A stretch of DNA of 45,152 nucleotides, taken from positions 1 through 45,152 of the forward strand of contig JALSHG010000103.1 in assembly GCA_026982355.1 (NCBI GenBank). Direction: 5' to 3'. The stretch's first letter is position 1. Each line of letters starts with the position of its first letter. Under the pieces are notes generated by a model. The model was not told the DNA's origin. It made no database searches and worked only from the letters and a program-made list of their open reading frames with translations. Shown piece by piece: positions 12,936 to 45,152 of the stretch. The DNA is from Thermodesulfovibrio sp. Lineage in GTDB: Bacteria > Nitrospirota > Thermodesulfovibrionia > UBA6902. The position numbers and the translations under genes were made by a program.

Positions 12936-12971
12936 GCGGACTCCCCTGCACGTTCATGCAACATTAAGGTT
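12934..12971. repeat. Palindromic repeat, half copy
   Basis: Contains GCGGACTCCCCTGC and the end CATGCAACATTAAGGTT. It abuts the next long copy head to tail and supplies the apparent Shine-Dalgarno of argA. Confidence 0.75.
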
Positions 12972-13190
12972 AACCTTACAGTTGCATAAAACCACCGCCC
13001 GCGGGCAGGAGAGTCCGGCGGAAAAGCTTTATCTGCGATACCTTCAGGACATATTCCGCACGGCATATTAACGTCTTTTGGAATTTCACCTTCCGTTAAG
13101 TCCTCCAATAAAGACATATTTCCGATATCCCATCGCTTTATAAAGGTTTTACGCCGGACTCTCCTGTCGGCTTATGCAACATTAAGGTTA
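12972..13190. repeat. Palindromic repeat copy 2, long form (219 bp)
   Basis: Begins AACCTTACAGTTGCATAA and ends TTATGCAACATTAAGGTT, i.e. the two family ends in inverted orientation. The arms GGCAGGAGAGTCCGGCGGAAAAGCTTTAT and its imperfect complement near 13130-13170 enclose a middle of about 110 bp that recurs at 22.6-22.8 kb and 28.6-28.8 kb. On the minus strand the middle is open and reads MSLLEDLTEGEIPKDVNMPC then GICPEGIADKAFP. Its AATG end provides the last four residues and stop of ppx. Confidence 0.9.
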
Positions 13191-15752: not shown

Positions 15753-15847
15753 TATCCTTACAGTTGTATAAAAAACACCGCCCGAAGGCAGGAGAGTCCG
15801 GCGGTTTTACGGCGGACTCTCCTGCCCGCTTATGCAACATTAAGGTT
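15753..15847. repeat. Palindromic repeat copy 3 (short form)
   Basis: Reads CCTTACAGTTGTATAAA at the left and TTATGCAACATTAAGG at the right, with inner arms GGCAGGAGAGTCCGGCGG and CGGCGGACTCTCCTGCCCGC meeting directly. It is the long form without its middle. Lies in the leader of the GGDEF-EAL gene. Between it and the next fragment (15848-16055) I see no gene. Confidence 0.85.
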
Positions 15848-22603: not shown

Positions 22604-22818
22604 AACCTTACAGTGGCATAAAGATGCCGCCTGCGGGCAGGGGAGTCAGGCGGAAAAGCTTTATCCGCGATACCTCGGAGGGTATTCCGCACGGCATATC
22701 GACATCCCTTGGAATTTCACTCTCCGTTACGTCCTGCAACAAAGACATGTTTCCGATATCCCATCGCTTTATAAAGGTTTTACGGCGGACTCCCCTGCCG
22801 GCTTGTGCAACATTAAGG
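22604..22818. repeat. Palindromic repeat copy 6, long form (~215 bp)
   Basis: Begins AACCTTACAGTGGCATAA and ends TTGTGCAACATTAAGG. Same arms and middle as copy 2, including TTTCCGATATCCCATCGC and TTTATAAAGGTTTTACGGCGG. The minus-strand middle reads MSLLQDVTESEIPRDVDMPC before a one-base deletion breaks the frame. Fills the gap between aspS and the pseudouridine synthase gene. Confidence 0.9.
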
Positions 22819-28601: not shown

Positions 28602-28815
28602 AACCTTAATCTTGCATAAACGTGCAGGGGAGTCTGCCGGAAAACCTTTATAAAGCGATTGGATATCGGAATATGTTATTGTTGCAGGAAATAACGGAAG
28701 TGAAATTAAAAAAGACGTTGATGTGCTATGCGGAATATGTCCTGAAGGTATCGCAGATAAAGCTTTCCCGGCAGACTCCCCTGCTCCGTCGCCGGTATTT
28801 TACGCAACTGTAAGG
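28602..28815. repeat. Palindromic repeat copy 10, long form (~214 bp), opposite orientation
   Basis: Begins AACCTTAATCTTGCATAA and ends TTTTACGCAACTGTAAGG, so reversed relative to copies 2 and 6. The middle, now on the plus strand, reads MLLLQEITE, a one-base frameshift, then EIKKDVDVLCGICPEGIADK and AFPADSPA. From 28723 the frame stays open into the ModE-like gene. Confidence 0.88.
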
Positions 28816-39550: not shown

Positions 39551-39658
39551 GATGCTGCATAAACAGGCAGGAGAGCCTGCCGGCAACCCTTCATCTGCGT
39601 GTCTTCACCTTAATGTTGCATAAGCGGGCAGGCGGTGTTTTTATGCAACTGTAAGGTT
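39551..39658. repeat. Two palindromic repeat copies (12, diverged; 13, single-stem)
   Basis: The first (39551-39593) keeps GATGCTGCATAAACAGGCAG and a hairpin GGCAGGAGAGCCTGCC. The second (39608-39658) is clean: CCTTAATGTTGCATAAGC, GGGCAGGCGGTG, TTTTATGCAACTGTAAGGTT. The rest of the gap up to 39836 holds no gene or other feature I can support. Confidence 0.8.
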
Positions 39659-40811: not shown

Positions 40812-41266
40812 TGAAACCAGAGGATAAAAAAAACCGGTCCGCCGAGCTGAGGGAACTTGCACACGAACTCAAAGACGCATTCGATGCGGTCTCCCCTTTC
40901 ATCGAAAAGCATACGGCGGTAGTCTGCCCTGAATGCAGGCAGGTCTGCTGTCGTGACAAACACGGCCGCCCCGATGAAAATGACCTCGTCTTTCTCAGGG
41001 CGCTCGGCGAGGAGATGCCGGACGGCCGGACGGAGCGGGGGGAATCGGAGCCCTGCCGTTTTCTCACTGAGACCGGCTGTTCCCTGCAAAGATGGAGGAG
41101 GCCCTTCCGCTGCACCTTTTTCTTCTGCGCCCCGCTGTTGAAAAGCCTGGAGAACGACAACGCCAAGCTGTACAGGGCGTTTGTGCAATACTTTCAGCAT
41201 CTGGTGCAGGCAAGGCGCAGGCTTCTCGAGTCCCGGGCAGTCCCTGATCAGGTGTGTGCACCTTAA
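40811..41266 (+). CDS. YkgJ-type Cys-cluster protein
   Basis: 151 aa. Cysteines are arranged as in the YkgJ/CxxCxxCC family: CPECRQVCC (Cys39, 42, 46, 47), CRFLTETGCSL (82, 90) and FRCTFFFCAPL (101 or so, 106). Such proteins are thought to bind zinc or an Fe-S cluster; no firm function is known. It overlaps lolD by one base. The stop codon TAA (41264-41266) is the TAA of the repeat end CCTTAATG. Confidence 0.8.
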   Translation: MKPEDKKNRSAELRELAHELKDAFDAVSPFIEKHTAVVCPECRQVCCRDKHGRPDENDLVFLRALGEEMPDGRTERGESEPCRFLTETGCSLQRWRRPFRCTFFFCAPLLKSLENDNAKLYRAFVQYFQHLVQARRRLLESRAVPDQVCAP

Positions 41267-41303
41267 TGTTGCATAAGCCGGCATTTTTATGCCGCTGTAA
41301 GGT
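41261..41303. repeat. Palindromic repeat copy 14 (minimal form, 43 bp)
   Basis: CCTTAATGTTGCATAAGCCG then GCATTTTTATGCCGCTGTAAGGT. The smallest clean copy: just the two ends and a short inner arm. Confidence 0.85.
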
Positions 41304-41308
41304 ATATA

Positions 41309-41337
41309 TTGACTTCCCCCGGCTGCATCTTTAAACT
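41309..41337 (+). promoter_or_regulatory. Sigma70 promoter of argS, between two repeats
   Basis: TTGACT (41309-41314), 17-nt spacer, TAAACT (41332-41337). Transcription would start near 41344, so copy 15 forms the mRNA leader of argS. Confidence 0.55.
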
Positions 41338-41340
41338 TAT

Positions 41341-41389
41341 CCTTAATGTTGCATAAGCCGGCAGGCGGTTTTTTACGCAACTGTAAGGT
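41341..41389. repeat. Palindromic repeat copy 15 (short form) in the argS leader
   Basis: CCTTAATGTTGCATAAGCCG, GCAGGCGGTTTTTTACGC, AACTGTAAGGT. Would fold as a hairpin with the T6 run in the loop region. No ribosome binding site is evident between it and the argS ATG. Confidence 0.85.
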
Positions 41390-43074: not shown

Positions 43075-43516
43075 ATGCTTTATGTTACAGCATTAGTCAT
43101 TCACGTGGTATCGGTCCTGATATGGATCGGCGGGGTCGCCTTTGTGACAATGATCACGTTTCCGATGATACAGAGGGCCGGCAGTTCGCTTGACCAGGTC
43201 CTGATGTTCCAGGGGGTTGAACACCGTTTCTCGAAGATCGCAAAGGTGATGGTGGTACTGGCCGGGCTGTCGGGGTTTTACCTGCTTTATGAAAAAGGGC
43301 TGAGCGCCGGCGTGTGGATAATGATCTTTGTATGGGCGTTTTATGCATCGCTGCTGTTCGGCCTGGAGAAACTGATCTTCAAGAAACTCTTCAGCGCCCC
43401 TTCGGGGGAGCAGCTCGATACAAAAAAGGTTTTCAACATGCTGCAGGTATTCCACTGGTTCGTGCTCACCCTGAGTTTTCTGGCGATTGCGGCCGGGATA
43501 TACACAGCGCACTATT

Positions 43517-43518
<2 letters not shown>
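43075..43518 (+). CDS. Four-helix membrane protein, CopD/HemJ-like
   Basis: 147 aa with four hydrophobic segments (about 3-28, 55-72, 80-103, 122-144). The first has VIHVVSVLIWIGGVAFVTM, a His-containing helix typical of the CopD/HemJ-like group that binds haem or copper; a second His lies in QVFHWFVLTLSF. Without a close homologue the function stays open. It follows argS by two bases. Stop TAA overlaps the first bases of repeat copy 16. Confidence 0.75.
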
Positions 43519-44747
<1,229 letters not shown>

Positions 44748-44837
44748 AAGGAACGGTTCCGTCTTTCTTTCCCTTGCCGTCAAGGGATGGGCGAGACGGT
44801 ATTCAGAACGGAAATCCGGATAATACCTCCGCCGTTT

Positions 44838-45066
44838 CCTGTCCCCCGCTCTCACCGGATTCAACTCTGCACGCTTCGAGTAAATGATTCTCTTTTGTAT
44901 GAGTATGGCTTTGTATCTTCCCTGAAATATGTGTCCCGCTCTTTTGTGTTTCCTGTTAAATATCTGCTGACCTTATTTATTGCAGCAAGTATGTTTTCCC
45001 GTCCTGATCGTCTCTGAAAACGGCTTCCCGCGCGTTGCCTCTTGAGGTGATGTTGTTCTGCTCGAC
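44838..45066 (-). pseudogene. REP-associated tyrosine transposase (RAYT / Y1_Tnp) remnant
   Basis: Reading leftward, NNITSRGNAREAVFRDDQDG (about 45057-44998) is the N-terminal block of RAYT proteins. After a stop at about 44978 another frame gives FNRKHKRAGHIFQGRYKAIL, the conserved middle block, continuing to LNPVRAG (44864-44844), the following block. The region with the HUH metal-binding histidines and the segment between the second and third blocks (YLLELSRYIH-like) have been deleted. It is therefore a short, multiply deleted pseudogene. The remaining stretch 44748-45152 shows no intact gene; GGAACGGTTCC after tgt might be a weak hairpin. Confidence 0.75.
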
Positions 45067-45152
45067 AAATTAGGAACAACTATTTCGAGTTTAAAGTTAG
45101 TCCTTTCAGGTTTTCAAGTTTATAAACATTTGCCGGAATATCATATTCCAGC

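Follow-up and report, generated by a model that had tools for sequence, protein, structure and literature searches.

Results

A decayed transposase downstream of tgt

The window, by which we mean the whole stretch of DNA that was analysed, is the complete contig G000:C103 (45,152 bases) of a genome (G000) of 2.62 Mb in 119 contigs. At its right end the gene tgt, used as an orthologous anchor, is followed by a scrap of a tyrosine recombinase, a decayed transposase (relic 1) and the 3' end of an IS3-family element, within which the contig ends (45152). Palindromic repeats are found in the rest of the window (Table 1).

A preliminary description had reported a decayed RAYT transposase at 44838-45066, based on three blocks of amino acids. 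These blocks are present on the minus strand in two frames, SRGNAREAVFRDDQDG in frame -3 (45054-44986) and FNRKHKRAGHIFQGRYKAIL and LNPVRAG in frame -1 (from 44966 downwards), and they are far above chance. In a tblastn search of the window with G005:C112 (281 aa), the closest of the intact homologues identified, the frame -1 and frame -3 stretches were matched at E 1e-13 and E 5e-4, respectively, and no other match below E 0.7 was obtained; the far end of the frame -1 alignment extends beyond relic 1. A 39-aa fragment of relic 1 matched intact homologues with up to 74% identity (E 2e-12), and the DNA identity between relic 1 and G005:C112 was 78-82%. The existence of the relic was thus confirmed and its extent was not: the borders were trimmed to 45053-44844, given that the IS3 end and the recombinase scrap directly adjoin it.

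Compared with G005:C112, about 120 nt including the HUH motif (NHYH) are gone from relic 1, 8 nt including the codon for the catalytic tyrosine of the Y motif are deleted, two single bases are also missing, and the sequence ends past the LNPVRAG block with the C-terminal (3') part absent. The catalytic part had been described as lost, and indeed both the HUH motif and the tyrosine, which are present in intact relatives, are deleted here, which makes relic 1 a non-functional remnant of its family. No Pfam match was obtained at E 0.1 for the 71-aa read-through of relic 1 or for the open reading frame of a second relic (see below), and the identification of both therefore rests on alignment to relatives. 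These results confirm that relic 1 genuinely derives from a RAYT-superfamily transposase (Y1/HUH) and is dead; in itself it is ordinary.

Table 1. Positions of the annotated features in the window
Feature	Position	Strand	Evidence
Full-length 214-bp MITE, TTAA on both sides	12974..13187	+	
90-bp MITE with internal deletion, TTAT duplication	15756..15845	+	empty site in G001:C96
Full-length 213-bp MITE	22606..22818	+	
Full-length 212-bp MITE	28604..28815	-	
49-bp solo MITE end pair, TTCA on both sides	39608..39656	-	
MITE R-type end closest to relic 1, 1,324 nt away	43520..43535	+	
tgt, tRNA guanosine(34) transglycosylase, orthologous anchor gene	43593..44747	+	TIGR00430, E 5e-162
Tyrosine-recombinase N-terminal (SAM-like) domain scrap, joined to relic 1	44756..44842	-	DNA identity
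Relic 1, decayed TIRYT-type transposase (RAYT superfamily, Y1/HUH)	44844..45053	-	tblastn, DNA alignment, deletions
IS3-family element, 3' end (C-terminus ending in KLENLKGLTLNSK and stop, plus terminal repeat)	45054..45152	-	DNA identity

The border of the IS3-family element coincides exactly with the start of transposase similarity in relic 1, and because the element abuts this start the 5' part of the relic is invisible here. The element was identified by its identity to G008:C27 (94% over 99 nt) and G042:C32 (86%), the latter containing a 310-aa open reading frame that scores above the NCBIfam transpos_IS3 cut-off. On the other side, the recombinase scrap is 76% identical to a second scrap in the same genome (G000:C12:98097-98178; L105 4098-4179) and has a short match (34 nt at 88%) to G041:C27, in which the open reading frame matches Phage_int_SAM_4 (E 1e-10). 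Both recombinase scraps lie near other mobile debris, and we take them to be possible relics of integron-type integrases. An Rfam scan of positions 43400-45152 gave no match.

The genus was represented by three genomes, G000 and the incomplete sister genomes G001 (85%) and G002 (88%). At the orthologous tgt site in G002 (G002:C290) there is no relic, and an epimerase-like frame (named by eye) follows shortly after the gene. Neither the DNA nor the protein sequence of relic 1 was found when the whole of the available G001 and G002 sequences was searched.

The family of the relic and its own ends

The intact homologue G005:C112 passes the NCBIfam model REP_Tyr_transpos (97.2 bits versus a cut-off of 80) and matches Pfam Y1_Tnp (E 2.9e-13). 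Its C-terminus gives a weak match to HTH_3 (E 1.2e-4; 22.5 bits, cut-off 23), in a region that is missing in the relics. Twenty places with at least 54% identity to G005:C112, itself included, were treated as close relatives, and two of these are themselves truncated, with open reading frames of 35 and 137 aa. The ends were counted at 53 places obtained from 64 tblastn lines, leaving out alignments that began beyond residue 5, duplicate places and relic 2. The 13-mer GGGGTCARGTCTT (at most 2 mismatches, within 300 nt) was present upstream of 19 of the 20 close relatives and its reverse complement downstream of 16, with both sides found in 15, as compared with 11 of 2650 windows in the shuffled control. 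Among the 33 more distant genes it was present upstream in 9 and on both sides in 5. The end pair of the intact relatives is GGGGTCARGTCTT/AAGAYYTGACCCC, and their terminal inverted repeats fit GGGGWSAS; the ends of relic 1 itself are lost. The exact 13-mer occurs in 44 of the 81 genomes searched, with only 2 occurrences in G000.

The sequence GGGGWSAS is given as the end consensus of TIRYTs/TIRtrons by Di Nocera 2013 (PMC3733652), and Quentin 2018 (PMC6006769) places 20 of 26 TIRYTs in subclass 2.1, which is described there as having no REPs and an HTH-type C-terminus. Judged by its sequence features, the relic family is of the TIRYT/TIRtron kind, with an apparent affiliation to the TnpA-Y1 subclass 2.1 type. 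The intact relatives share with this group the Y1/HUH core with the NHYH and YxxLNP motifs and ends that fit the consensus, and may also share an HTH-like C-terminal region, as the weak match above would suggest; no GTAG REPs are reported for the subclass. The window copy differs in being dead, with the HUH motif, the tyrosine and the C-terminal part absent.

A second TIRYT relic (relic 2) is located at G000:C27 (L104 from 436; features 383-577) and is identical to relic 1 at 67 of 68 aligned positions over their common part. The start of relic 2 is intact (MARPLRIEYEGAVYHITSRGN...), its internal deletion differs from and exceeds that of relic 1, and an end of its own family, GGGGTCAGGTCTTG, is kept upstream (C27:383). 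A fragment of a palindrome end is found about 25-50 nt past the end of the transposase sequence (L104, about 600-635), which we read as chance in a repeat-dense genome, still leaving one coincidence.

Small units of the form GGGGTCAGGTCTT...AAGACCTGACCCC, 52-281 bp in length, were also seen in relatives (L210, L211, L212, L213, L214, L215, L216 and L218). Those of 52 bp are palindromes, some near-perfect, and those of 124-281 bp contain no full gene and seem by eye to retain the 3' end of the TIRYT gene, some apparently being TIRYT genes with internal deletions. No obvious target duplication was seen at these units. In an empty-site comparison of the TIRYT at G038:C52 with G043, G041 and G045, the orthologue was split over two contigs.

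The palindromic repeats

Typical copies of the palindrome are 212-215 bp long with inverted ends CCTTACAGTTGCATAA (L) and CCTTAATGTTGCATAA (R), in which CCTTA is followed by CAG or ATG, making the two ends asymmetric. Target duplications were looked for at the flanks of 61 element copies, taken partly from the window and partly from fetched loci, using 2000 shuffles as control. The same 4-mer was found on both sides of 30 copies (shuffles: mean 16.5, maximum 25), and matching 4-mers were also found in 10 of the 21 copies with TTAA on neither side (shuffles: mean 2.0, maximum 8); for the same 61 copies there was no excess at lengths 2, 3, 5, 6 or 8. Among three sites compared between genomes only one was a clean empty site, that of the 90-bp copy at 15756-15845, which is absent from the sister contig G001:C96, where a single TTAT is present versus two in the window. 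The other comparisons were less clean, with the 13 kb site replaced by other sequence and more than the MITE missing at the 22.6 kb site.

The palindromes have the features of IS1380-type MITEs, given that they are short, non-coding and present in many copies and that shared inverted ends, target duplications and one empty site were observed. The exact L end was counted 86 times in G000, 94 times in G002, 3 times in G001 and 50 times in G078. It was present in 9 of the 81 genomes, and the reversed-pattern control was zero throughout.

The 20-mer TTAACCTTACAGTTGCATAA from the MITE end was found in 46 stretches, mostly from Nitrospirae MAGs and also from gammaproteobacterial ones (L138, L170 from Ectothiorhodospiraceae NORP100, L133, L166 and L171), and elements of 302 and 312 bp inside TTAA/TTAA were seen in gammaproteobacterial MAGs. 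These gammaproteobacterial ends suggest either transfer between phyla or binning error.

A candidate partner element of the IS1380 family

In the gammaproteobacterial contig L133 a frameshifted DDE_Tnp_1_4 gene lies beside an identical 20-mer end, and this led to a search of the 81 genomes with PF13701. A complete IS1380-family element of 1,531 bp was found in the genome of the window itself (G000:C48:159-1689; L232), with a 481-aa open reading frame that scores above the NCBIfam IS1380 cut-off (234 bits versus 180) and the layout TTAA-CCTTACAGTGGCATAA ... 481-aa ORF ... TTTTGCCACATTAAGG-TTAA. Its L and R ends agree with the MITE consensus at 15/16 and 14/16 bases, respectively, and share the CAG/ATG asymmetry. 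Such an end pair was found at this locus only among the 30 PF13701 loci tested, and when the locus was shuffled 3000 times an L-type end with at most one mismatch appeared in a single shuffle. The encoded protein shares 73-76% identity with the L133 gene product and no more than 31% with the remaining PF13701 proteins that were fetched. The contigs L146, L171, L166, L147, L135 and L158, which carry unpaired ends with reading frames next to them, had also been considered as autonomous copies; L133 apart, no transposase was recognised by eye, and the Pfam search covered L133.

IS1380 elements favour TTAA-type targets. The likeness to this family lies in the score of the open reading frame and the inverted ends, and, for the derived MITEs, in the 4-bp TTAA-like duplications and the short, non-coding, multi-copy derivatives; the difference lies in the low identity to the other fetched PF13701 proteins, the single gammaproteobacterial copy being the exception. 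A search of the PMC open subset, based mainly on titles and the beginnings of abstracts, gave no report of MITEs derived from IS1380 elements in Nitrospirota.

From these end sequences we infer that the G000:C48 element or a close relative probably mobilised the palindromes. The ends differ at 1-2 of the 16 bases, and past the first 20 nt or so the arms have nothing obvious in common, so that this particular copy is not necessarily the source of the MITEs. The same imperfect matches and differing interior arms could indicate that the palindromes are TIR-MITEs of another, unsampled DDE transposase and that the ends of the G000:C48 element became alike by convergence or capture. It would fit this reading that G001, which has the repeats, gave no match in the PF13701 search, and that the PF13701 gene of G002 was checked and had no MITE-type ends. 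However, both asymmetric ends and the flanking TTAA/TTAA agree simultaneously, the L-type end is rare among the shuffles, and in another phylum the identical 20-mer end has a related gene of the IS1380 type next to it; we regard an origin from such a second transposase as improbable.

The relic and the palindromes

The preliminary description had suggested that relic 1 was left by the enzyme that mobilised the palindromes, and had placed the nearest repeat about 1.2 kb away, in line with the measured 1,324 nt. Relic and palindromes do lie on one contig, a palindrome fragment does adjoin relic 2, and RAYTs have been proposed to mobilise REPs elsewhere, all of which would be expected if the palindromes had been moved by a RAYT as REP/REPIN-like single-strand elements. 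Proximity is uninformative in this case, because at 55% of the window positions a repeat end is no more than 1.3 kb away.

The search of G000 gave no intact copy, and the flanks of intact genes were therefore examined in relatives. These carry a different end pair, GGGGTCARGTCTT/AAGAYYTGACCCC, and the end kept at relic 2 is of the same kind. Window-type MITE ends near Y1 loci were at background level (6 in 174 kb versus 28 in 871 kb resampled), and the MITE-end matches seen near TIRYTs all had 3 mismatches. The repeats are present in all three genomes of the genus and an intact Y1_Tnp gene in none (two of the three being 85% and 88% complete): a search with PF01797 (E 0.001) gave no match in G000, G001 or G002 and did give matches in 60 of the 81 genomes searched, and as this model detects neither relic the result covers intact genes only. 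Palindromes thus occur where intact RAYTs were not found. The genome G078 has both MITEs and Y1_Tnp genes, and therefore co-occurrence alone cannot separate the enzymes.

The palindromes resemble the REPs/REPINs of RAYTs (TnpA-REP) in being palindromic, dispersed and present in many copies. They differ in being about 213 bp long with TIRs and target duplications, in having ends that do not resemble those of RAYT-type genes in relatives, and in that the searches of the genus gave no intact Y1 transposase that could be their cognate. Y1 transposases are not known to make target duplications, and the 4-bp duplications and long TIRs would be unexpected of Y1 chemistry. Together with the existence of an IS1380 element whose ends match, these results largely contradict mobilisation of the palindromes by the RAYT that left the relic, and this origin is very unlikely.

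Discussion

We consider it highly probable that relic 1 is a dead TIRYT and that the palindromes are IS1380-family MITEs with a partner at G000:C48, the relic being unrelated to them; relic and palindromes are most probably neighbours by chance. In the course of events that we infer, deletions would have removed the catalytic motifs of a TIRYT copy downstream of tgt in this lineage, and the IS3-family element seen in the sequence would have cut off the 5' part of this copy. The IS1380 DDE transposase is predicted to bind the CCTTACAGTTGCATAA and CCTTAATGTTGCATAA ends of the MITEs and would move them into TTAA-like sites, giving rise to the 4-bp duplication; their putative autonomous counterpart, with matching ends, is present in intact form in this genome.

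The tempting connection between a RAYT and its REPs is in this way removed as unsupported and replaced by a testable pair of transposase and MITE, which a single genome contains in full. The combination of a TTAA-targeting MITE in high copy number and an intact IS1380 partner would be useful for studying MITE amplification in bacteria. More tentatively, and with slightly less than even confidence, we suggest that a subfamily of IS1380 whose ends are asymmetric has, together with its 213-bp MITE, reached very high copy number in a genus of Nitrospirota, has also entered other families and the Gammaproteobacteria and may be mobile to this day, and that, separately, the class of TIRYT to which the relics belong leaves end-pair units of 52-281 bp as non-autonomous derivatives in relatives.

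Some MITE ends were observed back to back or in tandem (window 12954-12989 and 41261-41388; L190, L201 and L207), an arrangement suggestive of insertion of one copy next to or within another. Several contigs start in or next to a MITE copy (G000:C18:64, C56:142, C82:27, C34:55 and C90:121), and the assembly therefore seems to break at MITEs.
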